The notes under the pieces: model-generated
The model's database searches: none
The model's input: only the letters and a program-made list of their open reading frames with translations
Told to the model about the DNA's origin: nothing
Origin: Gammaproteobacteria bacterium
Lineage (GTDB): Bacteria > Pseudomonadota > Gammaproteobacteria > Burkholderiales > Gallionellaceae
Direction of reading: 5' to 3'
Length of the DNA: 64,000 nt
Assembly: GCA_018814405.1 (NCBI GenBank)
Contig: JAHIZO010000006.1
Span: 124,001 to 188,000 of the forward strand
Translations under genes and position numbers: made by a program
Shown here: positions 17,017 to 53,329 of the stretch, one piece after another
Position numbering within the stretch: the first letter of the stretch is position 1
Layout of the letters: every line of letters begins with the position of its first letter

Positions 17017-18114
17017 TCAAGCATTCCCTATCCCCTTGGTCGGCAGATCAATCTGCTTCGCAAAATCCAGCATGCGTTTAATAGGCTGCACAGCACGCGG
17101 AATGATGGCGGGGTCGACGTGGATCTCGTTGTGGCCTTTTTCCAGCACTTCGGCAAGGTTGATCAGGCCGTTCATCGCCATCCACGGGCAGTGGCTGCAG
17201 CTGGTGCAGGTGGCACCGTGGCCGGCGGTGGGGGCTTCGAGGAAGGTCTTGTCGGGGCACAGCGTGCGCATTTTGTGCAGGATGCCGTTGTCGGTGGCGA
17301 CGATGAATTCTTTTGCGTTTGAATTCTGCGCGGCCTTGATGATCTGCGTTGTGGATCCGACCACATCGGCGAGTTGCACGACTGCGCGCGGCGATTCGGG
17401 ATGTACCAGCACCAACGCATCAGGGTGCTGTGCTTTCAGCTCTTGAAGTTCTTTGGATTTGTATTCGTCGTGCACGATGCATGAGCCTTGCCACATGAGC
17501 ATGTCGGCACCGGTCTGGTCCTGCACATAGCCTCCAAGGTGACGATCCGGCGCCCACAGTATCTTCTGGCCTTGTTCCTTCAGATGCTTCACCACCGGCA
17601 GTGCGATGGAGCTGGTCACCATCCAGTCGGCGCGCGCCTTCACGGCGGCGCTGGTGTTGGCGTACACCACCACGGTGCGATCGGGATGTGCATCACAAAA
17701 AGCGGTGAACTCGTCCGCCGGACATCCGAGGTCGAGTGAACATTCGGCTTCAAGGTCGGGCATCAGCACGCGCTTCTCGGGATTCAATATCTTCGCCGTC
17801 TCGCCCATGAAGCGCACACCTGCAACGACAATGGTCTTGGCCGGATGCTGGTGGCCGAAGTTGGCCATGTCGAGCGAGTCGGACACGATGCCACCGGTCG
17901 CTTCTGCCAAGTCTTGCAGGTCGGGATGCACGTAGTAATGCGATACCAGTACAGCGTCCTGTTCTTTCAGCATGCGTTTGATGCGCGCGATCAGCTCGGC
18001 TTTTTCTGCCGGCTCAGGCTCGCGCGGCTTCTTGGCCCAGGCGTGCGCTGTGCTGCAACTTGTCTGAGCTGTGTCTGGATGTTCGTAGGCGATTTCGATT
18101 TTGCTTTGTTGCAT
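17017..18114 (-). CDS. nadA: Quinolinate synthase
   Basis: A 365-residue NadA, the [4Fe-4S] enzyme that condenses iminoaspartate with dihydroxyacetone phosphate to quinolinate in NAD synthesis. Visible family signatures are [17 protein letters not shown] near residue 60, DLGCPADEF around residue 130, and the Cys-rich [13 protein letters not shown] near residue 310 that contributes cluster ligands. nadB and nadC are not nearby. Upstream, 27 bases separate its start from the outer end of a palindromic repeat (18142). Confidence 0.95.
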
Positions 18115-18141
18115 TTTGATTCCTTGTTGTTCCTAGAGGGC

Positions 18142-18294
18142 AAATCCCCCGCTCACTTTGTTCGCCGCCCCCTTTTGTTAAAGGGGGCTCAATGCTCGCT
18201 CTATCTATTGAGCGAATACTTCAACCACAGCACGCCGTCTCTTCGACCCCACTCAACAGTTCCCCTCTTTGGCAAAGAGGGGTTAGGGGAGATT
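18142..18294. repeat. Palindromic repeat flanking the DUF559 gene, copy 1
   Basis: A 153-base element starting AAATCCCCCGCTCACTT and ending TTAGGGGAGATT, so the two ends form imperfect terminal inverted repeats. It shares three blocks with copy 2 at 18661: the 17-base left end, CAACCACAGCACGCCGTC (one base different) and CCCCTCTTTGGCAAAGAGGG. It holds an extra segment absent from copy 2, with a 9-bp perfect hairpin at 18167-18188 (GCCCCCTTT/AAAGGGGGC) and a 7-bp stem (GCTCAAT/ATTGAGC). The stop codon of the DUF559 gene lies in its right end. The hairpins could end transcription before nadA. Confidence 0.85.
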
Positions 18295-18660
18295 CGAACT
18301 TTTCAGTCTTGCCACAACTTCATCATAGATGAACTCCGCGACAGCATCCGTCTCCGTCAACACCTGCCTGTCGTCAAAGCGCAACACTTTGATGCCCATC
18401 TTTCCTAACGCTTCATCGCGTGCCACATCCTTTTGCTGATGTGCCGCTTCGAGATGTTGCGCACCATCCAGCTCAACCACCAGTTTTGCTCTCGGACAAT
18501 AGAAATCGACGATGAACGTTAGCAGTGGTTTCTGGCGGTAGAACTGCACATCAGCCAGTTGTTTGTTTCGCAGCCGCCACCACAAACTTTGCTCGGCTTC
18601 GGTCATGTTGCTGCGCAATGCTCTGGAAATCTTTTTCAGTGATTTGTTGTAGGGCCGCAC
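18283..18660 (-). CDS. DUF559 protein, Vsr/PD-(D/E)XK nuclease-like
   Basis: A 125-residue DUF559 protein. The start N-terminus RPYNKSLKK and the helix LRSNMTEAEQSLWWRLR are typical; the core is FIVDFYCPRAKLVVELDGAQH, cited as its two motifs VDFYCP and ELDGAQH, matching the D...ExD arrangement of very-short-patch-repair-like endonucleases. Biochemical function is unknown. GTG at 18660 was chosen because DUF559 proteins usually begin at this RPYNK; an in-frame GTG at 18675 would encode repeat sequence. The gene abuts repeat copy 2 exactly, and its last codons and TAA come from copy 1, so gene and repeats look like one cassette. Confidence 0.85.
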   Translation of the reverse strand: MRPYNKSLKKISRALRSNMTEAEQSLWWRLRNKQLADVQFYRQKPLLTFIVDFYCPRAKLVVELDGAQHLEAAHQQKDVARDEALGKMGIKVLRFDDRQVLTETDAVAEFIYDEVVARLKSSNLP

Positions 18661-18771
18661 AAATCCCCCGCTCACTTCTACTTACAACAAAGACTCCAAC
18701 TACAGCACGCCGTCACTTTAGCACTCCCACTACCGCCCCCCTCTTTGGCAAAGAGGGACTAGGGGAGATTT
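18661..18771. repeat. Palindromic repeat flanking the DUF559 gene, copy 2
   Basis: A 111-base element in the same orientation as copy 1, from AAATCCCCCGCTCACTT to CTAGGGGAGATTT. It contains the CCCCTCTTT-GGC-AAAGAGGG hairpin next to its right end and the CAACTACAGCACGCCGTC block. It lies between the DUF559 start codon (18660) and the nudB stop (18780). No obvious target-site duplication joins its outer flank (GTCGCT) to the outer flank of copy 1 (GAGGGC). Confidence 0.85.
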
Positions 18772-18779
18772 GTCGCTTT

Positions 18780-19232
18780 CTACTCCAACGTATCTTTCCG
18801 TTCCGGCACCTGCAATATCGCTTCGCGGTTGCTGGGCGAGAAGACTTTATCCGCCGCTTCCCGCCAGGGCAACCACAGAAGGTTCAAGTGTTCGCGCGGC
18901 GAGAGGTTGACAGGGACAGGGTGTGGAAGTTGCAATCCGAACACATGCTCGGTATTGCGCGTGACGCCGGCGGCATAGCGGTGACGCCAGTGCGGGTAGA
19001 TCTCGTATTCGTTCTGCTGCTGCCAGTCGGTCAGTTGAAACTGATGTGCATCGATACCGGTCTCTTCGGCCACTTCGCGCAGTGCAGTTTCAAACAAAGA
19101 CTCTTCGCCGTCGCGACTGCCGGTGACCGATTGCCAATAACCGGGATGATCGGCTCGCTCGAGCAACAGCACTTCCAGCGCTGCGGTGTAGATGACGACC
19201 AGAACAGAGACGGGTTGCTTGGTTCGCTGCAT
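18780..19232 (-). CDS. nudB: Dihydroneopterin triphosphate pyrophosphatase (Nudix)
   Basis: A 150-residue Nudix hydrolase closely matching NudB, which removes pyrophosphate from dihydroneopterin triphosphate in folate synthesis. Signatures: RPVS-like KQPVSVLVVIY start, YWQSVTGSRDGEE (start of the Nudix box), REVAEETGID, and the family-specific HWRHRYAAGVTRNTEH. The ATG at 19232 was preferred to one 45 bases upstream because it matches the length of E. coli NudB and overlaps the barstar stop as TGATG. The aspS-nudB neighbourhood is widely conserved; here two genes have come between. Confidence 0.93.
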   Translation of the reverse strand: MQRTKQPVSVLVVIYTAALEVLLLERADHPGYWQSVTGSRDGEESLFETALREVAEETGIDAHQFQLTDWQQQNEYEIYPHWRHRYAAGVTRNTEHVFGLQLPHPVPVNLSPREHLNLLWLPWREAADKVFSPSNREAILQVPERKDTLE

Positions 19233-19633
19233 CACGCAAGGAATATCCAGAAGGGTTTGCCTGCCTGCTTCCAGCAATTCACCGTGTCGTTGAATATCTC
19301 CATGACCACTTCATGATCCGCTGCGGTCAACCCCAGCGTGTCGCCGCTGTTCAACAACAGCAACACATAACCCTCATCGAACTCATCCAGCCAGGACATG
19401 TCGCACAAGGCATCTGCCAGCGCGTCAAAGTTGTGACCGAACCAGTCCGGCGCCTGAATGGCATGCGCGATGGCCGCAAGGAATTCGCCCTTGTTGTGCA
19501 CATTCGTCATGTCGATCTCGAAGCTGCGGAATTCGGCCAAGGCCGCATTGCCGCGCAACACTTCGACCGGACAACTCAGGCGGTACACACCCGCTTCGCC
19601 CATATCCTGCAAACGTTCACACAAGTCGCTCAT
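19232..19633 (-). CDS. Barstar-family ribonuclease inhibitor
   Basis: A 133-residue protein whose C-terminal 90 residues match barstar. The motif PDWFGHNFDALADALCDMSW corresponds to the PEYYGENLDALWDCL helix of barstar, which supplies the Asp that plugs the barnase active site; the final strand FWIFLA matches barstar's last strand. About 40 extra N-terminal residues are present. It is cytoplasmic (no signal peptide) and would protect the cell from the RNase encoded directly upstream. Start ATG at 19633 follows AAGGAG by five bases; that element lies inside the end of the RNase gene, so translation is coupled. Confidence 0.88.
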   Translation of the reverse strand: MSDLCERLQDMGEAGVYRLSCPVEVLRGNAALAEFRSFEIDMTNVHNKGEFLAAIAHAIQAPDWFGHNFDALADALCDMSWLDEFDEGYVLLLLNSGDTLGLTAADHEVVMEIFNDTVNCWKQAGKPFWIFLA

Positions 19634-19635
19634 GC

Positions 19636-19998
19636 TCACTCCTTGATGCGTTTGAAACTGCGGTAATGATCGGCAGTGTAGTAACACTCCGGCACGGCAC
19701 CGCACACGATGCGGCGCGCACCGCGATGGCTGACGCCCGGTGTCTTCACTGTGTATTCACGGTAGTACCTGCGCGGCTGCGCAGGCAGGATGCGTTCGCG
19801 GTTCTTGAATTCGATACCGTCACGCGCATAAGGGAACGGGCCGCCGCGTTTGATGAGCAGCAATGTGTCGCGTGCCTCCGCCGGCAATTGCGCGACGGAG
19901 ATGACAGCGAGCGGATGGTCTTGTTGGTCGCGTGCCTGCGCGAACGGCAGGCACAGCAACAAGCCGGACAGTAACAACCACTGTACGGCGCGGCGCAT
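19636..19998 (-). CDS. Secreted barnase-like guanyl-specific ribonuclease
   Basis: A 120-residue precursor with a signal peptide (WLLLSGLLLCLPFAQA) and an N1/T1/barnase-type RNase domain. The catalytic set is visible by analogy with barnase: Glu in YREYTV (E81), Arg in ARRIVCG (R95/R96) and His in TADHYRSF (H111). A Cys pair, CGAVPEC, could form a disulfide in the periplasm or outside. It cleaves RNA after G. The start is ATG at 19998; GTG at 20001 directly after the aspS TAA is possible. The gene is followed two bases later by its likely inhibitor. Confidence 0.88.
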   Translation of the reverse strand: MRRAVQWLLLSGLLLCLPFAQARDQQDHPLAVISVAQLPAEARDTLLLIKRGGPFPYARDGIEFKNRERILPAQPRRYYREYTVKTPGVSHRGARRIVCGAVPECYYTADHYRSFKRIKE

Positions 19999-20001
19999 CA
20001 C

Positions 20002-44925: not shown

Positions 44926-44978
44926 CCCGCTCCAGAGGCCTCTTCTACGGTCATGCCACGCCCCTTCCCCCTTTCCAA

Positions 44979-45002
44979 CTTTCTCCCGCAAGCGGGAGAA
45001 AG
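44979..45002. repeat. REP-like palindrome
   Basis: CTTTCTCCCG-CAAG-CGGGAGAAAG, a perfect 10-bp stem in the 166-base gap between pcnB and the HAD gene, without a T tract. This sequence type recurs as an intergenic palindrome in many proteobacteria; here one copy is visible. Confidence 0.6.
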
Positions 45003-45032
45003 GGCGAACGAATCGCCACGCGAACTTTTTGA

Positions 45033-52252: not shown

Positions 52253-53329
52253 TTACATCAATCCCATCGCTACCAATGCGACAAAGGCCCCGAACAGCAC
52301 GAAGTGACTGATACCTTCGATGGCATTGGTCTCGCCGTCATGCAGATTATTCATCACTGTCAGAAAGGTCAGCAGCAACATGCCGCCTTGTAGCGGTGTC
52401 AGCGCCATAACGATACGATCACCGGTAAACAACGCGATGGCCTCGATCACAGGCAGGGTCAGCAGGACGGTCGCCAGCGATGCACCGAGCGCTATGTTGA
52501 CCGTGGTTTGCATGCGGTTCTGCTGCGCCGCCTTGAGGGCGGTGAGTATCTCCGGGCAGGCCGATATCAGCGCCACCAGAACCGCCGGGATCGCTTTAGG
52601 CAGACTGCTACCGGCCAAGCCGGCATCCAGCAACACGGATAGCACTTCGGACAGCAGGCCGACCAGCACGATAGCGCCGACCATGACGCCGACATGCAAG
52701 GAGTTCGGGCTGTGCTCCTCATCATGCACCTCCTCTTCGAGAGAGGAGGTGTATTCAAAAAAGGTGCGATGTTCCACCGTCTGCAGGCGCAGGAAGGCGA
52801 TGTACATCACAGCCATGATGATGACCGAGAACACAGAGTAAACCTGCCATTGATCTTCCGGCACAAAGTCGGGAATGAACATGCCCACACCGATAGCGAC
52901 CAGCAACATGGCCACAAAGGAGTTGGCTGACGATATGTTGTATTTATTCTGTCCGTGCTTCAGTCCGCCGACAATCGCAGCCAGACCAAGAATGCCATTG
53001 ATGTCGAACATCACCGCCGCGAACACGGTGTCGCGCGCCAGCGTAGGATTGGGTTCGCCCATCATCAATACGACTAGGATGACAACTTCCACAGAAACTG
53101 CTGCCAGCGTGAGGATCATCGTGCCGTAGGGTTCACCCAAACGTATCGCCAGCACTTCGGCATGGTGCGCAATGCGGAAGGCGACGCCGATGATGGCGGC
53201 AAGAATCACCAGAAGAAGTCCCCACAGCATGCCCCCACCCTGCGCGACTGCGCTGTGCTCAAGTGCAAAACCCAACCCCAACACGATCAACGCGATGTAG
53301 ATAGGGAACTCATTCTTCAGATATTTCAT
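52253..53329 (-). CDS. Calcium/proton antiporter, CaCA superfamily
   Basis: A 358-residue membrane protein of the Ca2+:cation antiporter superfamily (ChaA/CAX type) with about ten helices in two homologous halves. The conserved alpha repeats contain Glu in AAVSVEVVILVVLMMGE and SACPEILTALKAAQQN. A charged loop rich in Glu/His (EEEVHDEEHS) links the halves. It exchanges cytoplasmic Ca2+ (or Na+/K+) for protons. It lies nine bases downstream of the greB gene. Confidence 0.88.
   Translation of the reverse strand: MKYLKNEFPIYIALIVLGLGFALEHSAVAQGGGMLWGLLLVILAAIIGVAFRIAHHAEVLAIRLGEPYGTMILTLAAVSVEVVILVVLMMGEPNPTLARDTVFAAVMFDINGILGLAAIVGGLKHGQNKYNISSANSFVAMLLVAIGVGMFIPDFVPEDQWQVYSVFSVIIMAVMYIAFLRLQTVEHRTFFEYTSSLEEEVHDEEHSPNSLHVGVMVGAIVLVGLLSEVLSVLLDAGLAGSSLPKAIPAVLVALISACPEILTALKAAQQNRMQTTVNIALGASLATVLLTLPVIEAIALFTGDRIVMALTPLQGGMLLLTFLTVMNNLHDGETNAIEGISHFVLFGAFVALVAMGLM

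Follow-up and report, generated by a model that had tools for sequence, protein, structure and literature searches.

What is a small nuclease-like gene doing between two copies of a palindromic repeat, in the space between nudB and nadA of a presumed Gallionella genome? The locus lies in a 64-kb stretch of DNA (the window) from genome G000, and a preliminary description of it held that the gene and its repeats spread, or are maintained, as one unit. Pfam and repeat searches confirmed the arrangement from which that proposal started, a DUF559 gene between two same-orientation repeat copies with a nudB-like gene and nadA as neighbours. The features are as follows.

17017..18114, minus strand: nadA quinolinate synthase, downstream neighbour (PF02445, E 3.2e-108)
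18141..18296, plus strand: repeat copy 1, on the gene's downstream side; 156 nt, two hairpins, outer ends of CAAATC...GATT type; holds the gene's stop codon
18159..18187, minus strand: inner hairpin of copy 1, CCCCCTTT...AAAGGGGG; weak triplex-type score, conserved tail at 18141-18150
18261..18294, plus strand: triplex-type motif of copy 1 from the three-block scan, CCCCTCTTT-GGC-AAAGAGGGG-TTA-GGGGAGATT
18283..18660, minus strand: DUF559 (PF04480) nuclease-like gene, 125 codons from the GTG at 18660 (Pfam E 5.9e-35)
18660..18772, plus strand: repeat copy 2, on the gene's upstream side; 113 nt, CAAATCCCCC...GGGGAGATTTG, inner hairpin eroded
18738..18770, plus strand: triplex-type motif of copy 2 from the three-block scan, CCCCTCTTTGGCAAAGAGGGACTAGGGGAGATT
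18780..19277, minus strand: nudB-like NUDIX gene, upstream neighbour (PF00293, E 6.5e-16)

With copy limits set by the ends CAAATC...GATT(TG) as seen in the sequence, the two copies earlier given as 111 and 153 nt measure 113 nt (copy 2) and 156 nt (copy 1). The three near-identical blocks described between them are present in register at 18141-18158/18660-18677 (18 nt, 100% identity), 18215-18243/18690-18718 (29 nt, 86%) and 18262-18294/18738-18770 (33 nt, 94%), and the inverted ends are likewise present but imperfect (CAAATCCCCC versus GGGGAGATTTG, with GGGGAGATTCG in copy 1). As had been reported, the gene starts on the edge of copy 2 and stops inside copy 1: its GTG (18660-18658) overlaps copy 2 by one base (a GTG in the same frame at 18675 is the alternative start), and its TAA (18285-18283) coincides with the TTA linker in copy 1's main hairpin. 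Within the window, AAATCCCCC occurs three times (0 of 100 shuffles reach three) and CAACYACAGCACGCCGTC twice (no shuffle reaches two).

A feature missed by the preliminary description is that the window repeats are, as read from their bases, of the three-block BoxC/PIT "intrastrand triplex" design. We scanned the 64-kb window for a pyrimidine arm, a purine arm and a mirror third strand. The scan picked out both copies, copy 1's inner hairpin and, elsewhere, two weak triplex-type motifs at 44967-45003 and 52715-52751. Both copies fit the BoxC/PIT/TM form, with a pyrimidine arm, a complementary purine arm, a mirror third strand and short loops, and hairpins like the inner hairpin of copy 1 also occur in G007, G013 and G015. 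The suggested genome-wide search found only the two flanking copies in the own genome: a BLAST query comprising copy 2 and the adjoining 28 nt (18661-18800) returned itself and copy 1 (E 3.2e-13), and the 10-mer CAAATCCCCC occurs six times, in the two copies and at four sites where the repeat does not continue. No spread is therefore evident in the own genome, and because the many copies per genome that mark BoxC/PIT/TM are not found there (two copies; four hairpins by pattern), we call the window repeat BoxC-type rather than BoxC.

The protein scored 119.9 bits against PF04480 (gathering cut-off 20.6), which places it in the family, and all 28 of 28 aligned members matched PF04480 at E ≤0.1. 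Profile searches matched DUF559 to PDB 3hrl, an endonuclease-like protein (E 5.9e-34), and, at E 3.1e-4, to PDB 3r3p, an entry named 'mobile intron protein' that we take to be I-Bth0305I, an EDxHD homing endonuclease. The DUF559 protein is probably a nuclease of the PD-(D/E)XK type, akin to Vsr and to the EDxHD homing endonucleases. PADLOC gave partial matches of the protein to DpdF (E 4e-10, 63 of 1078 positions) and to a methyl-directed restriction enzyme (E 2.5e-5), and between 17500 and 19500 no Rfam family, intron families included, reached its gathering score. Next to nudB, a barstar gene (PF01337) adjoins a 121-aa frame that presumably, from its resemblance by eye, encodes a secreted barnase-type ribonuclease; the pair lies at 19232-20001 on the minus strand.

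We then compared the locus across the genus, examining 27 nudB loci of which 23 were readable (G019, G027, G028 and G033 were left out). DUF559 lay between two same-orientation repeats in four of the 23 (G000, G007, G013 and G015), and in the other 19 the genes adjoined or overlapped with no spacer and no repeat, nadA starting at or within the nudB stop region. The empty-site comparison proposed earlier thus gave 19 loci without the cassette, and none of the four filled loci carried a DUF559 orthologue lacking flanking repeats, the outcome that had been named as counting against the proposal. The repeat is complete on both sides in G013 and G015 (CAAATCCCTCC-hairpin-spacer-hairpin-GGGGGATTTG, one G013 copy having first ends AAATCCCTCC), which share the layout of copy 1; that layout is interrupted in G007 by another repeat in the downstream copy, and the upstream copy of G000 is without the inner hairpin. 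Between-genome identity of DUF559 at this locus was 66-76% versus 68-85% for nudB, and the four filled genomes call for four changes on an hrpA tree and three on a nudB tree. Because DUF559 is about as diverged as nudB, a recent spread to nudB-nadA is unsupported, and gain, loss and transfer are indistinguishable at this site; we therefore dropped nudB-nadA as proof of recent transfer. The idea that gene and repeats are one unit is supported as far as the arrangement recurs, both in these four of 23 loci and in the cross-taxon flanks described below.

DUF559 was found in 23 of the 34 genomes of the genus (43 matches), and the Gallionella set used here consists of 30 loci, the best of those 43 with at most two per genome, many of them mutually orthologous. 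In hrpA, at a position between DAERFAKHF and QVSGRTYPVE (site 1), an in-frame DUF559 domain with repeats on both sides was read fully in nine genomes, and G013 has DUF559 there by search rows alone. Site 1 was empty in 14 genomes by direct reading and in two more (G003 and G031) by search rows, these two being among the five of 30 loci that our script left unmatched, and G004 holds a repeat without DUF559. Site 1 tolerates unrelated REPIN-like elements too: G015 (L085) has one, GTAGGAGCGAGCTTGCTCGC, in frame. At a second hrpA site, where 29 loci were considered and six went unread, nine genomes carried inserts without DUF559 (three two-hairpin, three one-hairpin and three worn) and 14 were empty. 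At two other loci (L015 and L032) the DUF559 frame continues through the downstream repeat into an SdhE-like protein, named by eye.

The preliminary description had proposed a test of whether DUF559 genes elsewhere start and stop in the repeat, and in a cross-taxon set made up of the best 80 of at least 557 relatives the gene generally had cognate repeats beside it. Like repeats lay on both sides of the gene at 62 of the 73 loci with both flanks (seven of the 80 were dropped because a flank was too short), against 13 of 844 same-size control intervals at the same loci. Among the same best 80 of at least 557 relatives, 12 of them dropped for short flanks, the triplex-type motif accompanied the gene on one side or both at 62 of 68 loci (controls 40/807) and on both at 50 of 68 (controls 1/807). 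The triplex scan found no motif at the remaining six of these 68 best-matching loci (L113, L123, L151, L153, L154 and L180), three of which (L123, L153 and L154) have hairpin repeats nearby by eye that it did not accept. L153 is a Rickettsiaceae DUF559 gene between palindromic repeats. In Gallionella, with two of 30 loci dropped for short flanks, the motif was on at least one side at 28 of 28 loci and on both at 23 of 28, against 9/53 and 0/53 for controls, many of these loci being mutually orthologous.

The motifs also have a preferred polarity. Within the best 80 of at least 557 relatives, the nearest upstream motif faced the gene in 48 of 54 cases and the nearest downstream motif in 54 of 58, the third strands of both flanks faced the gene in 42 of 50, and the stop codon lay in or touched the motif at 14 of 58 loci. 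Inward polarity was weaker in Gallionella (13 of 23), perhaps because many flanks there hold two hairpins. DUF559 identity and flank similarity rose together (Spearman 0.53 over 2757 pairs of 75 loci from the best 80 of at least 557 relatives, after dropping five loci and 18 pairs with a shared neighbourhood); none of 500 permutations reached this value, and control flanks shifted by 1500 or 2500 bases gave a rho of 0.05-0.07. These data establish the association, the polarity and the co-divergence of DUF559 and its repeats. At six loci (L083, L086, L093, L019, L035 and L198) a different REP, GGAACTACTAGCCA...GACTAAG...CAAGTCG, is inserted in the DUF559-linked repeats, one repeat family being nested in another.

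Repeat number followed the presence of the gene. In Gallionella, where we took repeat load as the sum of two hairpin patterns, the median was 45 in 23 genomes with DUF559 versus 5 in 11 without (p=6e-5), and among genomes at least 90% complete the load was 51 (15 with DUF559) versus 4 (six without), in both cases among genomes related by descent. One genome without the gene, G001, has 11 hairpins. The four genomes with the window-type gene have 82 (G015), 35 (G013), 5 (G007, an incomplete genome) and 4 (G000) window-type hairpins and the other 30 have at most 8, a number found in G033, the remaining 29 having three or fewer. In 16 DUF559 genomes of other groups we counted 0 to 135 window-type hairpins, above a reversed-pattern control in 15, with an excess of just 1 to 3 in three of those. 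Among 248 Enterobacterales genomes, at least two repeats occurred in 28 of the 32 whose DUF559 match was strong (E below 1e-25) versus 12 of 212 without the gene, counts that are uncorrected for kinship and treat 17 genomes with weak matches only as lacking it; four of the 32 had no repeat of the pattern, and four further genomes with DUF559 fragments were excluded (6, 3, 99 and 0 repeats). G217, the one with 99 triplex-type motifs, has no more of DUF559 than a short fragment containing a stop, and its repeats have perhaps outlived their gene.

Repeats without the gene differ between species in presence and absence, also in frame inside genes. We compared three such solo elements in one 7.3-kb stretch of G013. 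The first, at a gene junction (nifL-nifA by eye), is bordered on each side by the same 23 nt of host junction; 15 of 16 readable relatives have no element there, and G025 has a different hairpin. The second site is empty in 11 of 17 relatives, with a repeat of the other type in G027, and the third is empty in 5 of 17, the others holding different sequence that is partly other repeats. Two solo elements out of 19 (one of 20 loci was dropped) had a long host duplication, of 25 and 23 nt respectively, and none of 224 control intervals reached 12 nt. Filler separates duplication from element, so this is no textbook target duplication. Many solo elements read hairpin-tail-about 25 nt-tail-hairpin, like the gene-bearing arrangement minus the gene. 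Together, these observations support mobility of the repeats between species.

A link to BoxC itself comes from E. coli K-12, in which ycjD is a DUF559 gene. The ycjD stop lies within CCCTCTCCCTGA, and a BoxC-like motif, CCCCTCACCCTAACCCTCTCCCCAGAGGGGCGAGGGGACC, follows within about 200 bases 3'; the upstream hairpin is of another kind, so that the BoxC-like motif is on the 3' side only. The 3' motif is BoxC-like by form, being three-block with a T-T-A second loop like type A in the available text of Holder et al. 2015 (PMC4666352). Of 5426 E. coli genomes, 5375 contain this motif, at a median of 19 places each, and ycjD was detected in 3365 of the 5426, leaving about 2000 genomes that keep the repeat with ycjD undetected, at megablast sensitivity. 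Repeats therefore persist without the gene, and a repeat with no link to DUF559, the other outcome that had been named as adverse, is in part what E. coli presents. We discarded the ycjD site as an empty-site test, since two strains lacking ycjD have an efflux operon beside fabI and no clean empty site. In K-12 the 3' end of ycjD is seemingly part-duplicated (CGGTGCTGGAGAATATTC) ahead of the BoxC-like motif (L206, about 2250-2460). According to the text of PMC4666352 available, the BoxC/PIT motif is found in over 260 genomes, has 23 occurrences in MG1655, five cases being inverted pairs, and lies in surroundings of heightened variability; the E. coli motif is reported to form a triplex as isolated DNA; and its authors saw near it no remnants of transposases or integrases and no shared function among flanking genes (PMC4666352). 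The string AGGGTTAGGGTGAGG appears 14 times in that text, and DUF559, ycjD and nuclease, sought as word starts, do not appear in its main text.

We consider it moderately probable that the window locus is a copy of a widespread one-gene element whose DUF559 nuclease helps its cognate BoxC-type repeats to spread. Such an element would consist of the gene between BoxC/PIT-type repeats, each with a pyrimidine arm, a loop, a purine arm, a short linker and a mirror purine third strand, and mostly oriented with the third strands towards the gene. The protein would recognise its cognate repeat, possibly extruded as a hairpin or folded into a triplex on single-stranded DNA, and would cut or nick either there or elsewhere; during repair, synthesis could then copy the repeat, sometimes with the gene, into the break. 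Scattered repeats would be the non-autonomous form, standing to the gene-bearing element as REPINs stand to RAYTs, with an unrelated enzyme. That DUF559 drives repeat movement is thus our deduction from these patterns.

The strongest rival, which we regard as unlikely, is homing into repeats, whereby older repeats spread by other means and a DUF559 homing endonuclease gene cuts them and is copied in by homologous repair, so that repeats come to flank it although it does not move them. The relationship of DUF559 to 3r3p, a mobile intron endonuclease, fits such homing, as do the persistence of repeats without the gene and the many solo elements that resemble the gene-bearing layout minus the gene, yet homing alone leaves unexplained why repeat number follows DUF559 and why gene and repeat sequences track each other across taxa, unless the enzyme also keeps its targets. 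We find it improbable that the repeats are fragile, replication-stalling sites that a Vsr-like DUF559 protein processes, its gene being retained beside them for that reason, with movement as a side effect of fragile-site repair. The available text of PMC4666352 associates triplex motifs with higher variability in E. coli, and that of PMC12907096 describes a DNA damage response dependent on Caulobacter VsrA, a DUF559 protein and predicted mismatch endonuclease, but a repair gene needs no flanking copies, and here repeats lie near both ends with preferred polarity and contain or touch the stop codon at those 14 of 58 loci among the best 80 of at least 557 relatives.

Rated lower again is a passenger role, with RAYT/Y1 transposases or another machine spreading the repeats and DUF559 genes carried between them. 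Gallionella repeat load does correlate with Y1_Tnp number as well (rho 0.61; 0.70 for DUF559), and the different REP inside some flanks is RAYT-type by resemblance. However, of 20 Y1_Tnp regions picked from 70 matches, one had the motif and none had it on both sides, and the different REP was present at just one of the 20 in a crude test; Gallionella genomes with Y1 and without DUF559 have 4, 4, 0 and 18 repeats, and those with DUF559 and without Y1 have 5, 65, 8, 18, 16, 104 and 15. The Y1_Tnp loci and the repeat counts without Y1 thus disfavour RAYT as the mover. Intergenic hairpins are common in bacteria, as the available text of PMC4666352 also conveys, but that the repeats are ordinary hairpins or terminators unlinked to the small gene beside them has a probability close to nil, being contradicted by the same-locus controls (both-side motifs at 1 of 807 in the set of the best 80 of at least 557 relatives), and opposed by the co-divergence and the in-frame copies in coding genes.

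Returning to a DUF559 element that spreads its own repeats, we tentatively suggest a broader reading, to which we give slightly less than even credence: DUF559 proteins, YcjD among them, may be the long-missing mobilisers of BoxC/PIT and form a class of their own, with a nuclease gene, triplex-forming inward-facing terminal repeats, a MITE-like repeat-only form, a range across Proteobacteria, Chloroflexi, Nitrospirae, candidate phyla and others, and in-frame insertion. The system is set apart by the lack of a Y1 domain, of classical insertion-sequence character and of any intron or intein element seen, and the open-access full texts searched (bioRxiv and most subscription papers lie outside these) contained no description of it and no paper linking DUF559 or ycjD to BoxC or triplex repeats. 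If true, a BoxC-like repeat class that has been without a known source for decades gains a candidate engine, DUF559, a family of unknown function, gains a function, and a Vsr/homing-type nuclease does for one repeat class what RAYTs do for REPINs.

REPIN/RAYT systems consist of a single small gene between palindromic repeats, with non-autonomous copies scattered through the genome. The likeness to transposase/REP systems that the preliminary description drew holds in layout, a palindrome-flanked gene with dispersed copies, although here the copies are dispersed in related genomes and not in the own one. The enzymes differ, the RAYT being a Y1 HUH transposase and DUF559 a PD-(D/E)XK-type nuclease by its profile matches; Y1_Tnp had no match in the DUF559 protein and none in the own genome, and so the domain that defines a RAYT was not found. 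A classical insertion sequence is not indicated either, as the protein has no DDE/DEDD transposase domain and duplications occur at just two of 19 solo elements. With EDxHD homing endonucleases, a family described in PMC3943268 (text in part), homology of the catalytic domain is detectable at the level of profiles (3r3p, E 3.1e-4). Those enzymes have one homing site, whereas here a short stand-alone gene goes with repeats at many sites and no intron or intein was seen; one recurrent DUF559 site, nudB-nadA, was observed. Caulobacter VsrA, predicted to be a mismatch endonuclease, is a DUF559 protein required for a DNA damage response of cells that lack a cytosine methyltransferase; it shows the domain in a Vsr-like protein, studied as mismatch repair with no repeat link in the available text of PMC12907096. 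In Legionella pneumophila, hotspots of mutation and recombination are reported in segments that carry a DUF559 gene together with a transposase (PMC12308824, available text), and Rickettsia palindromic elements are palindromic repeats in frame in genes (PMC10969869, available text), as at hrpA here. The closest parallel in the repeats themselves is BoxC/PIT/TM, which shares the three-block design, the dispersal and, in part, the inverted pairs, the window-type copies being A/T-richer (AAATCCC type); no mobility gene is associated with it in the available text of Holder et al. 2015 (PMC4666352), whereas the repeats described here go with a DUF559 gene.
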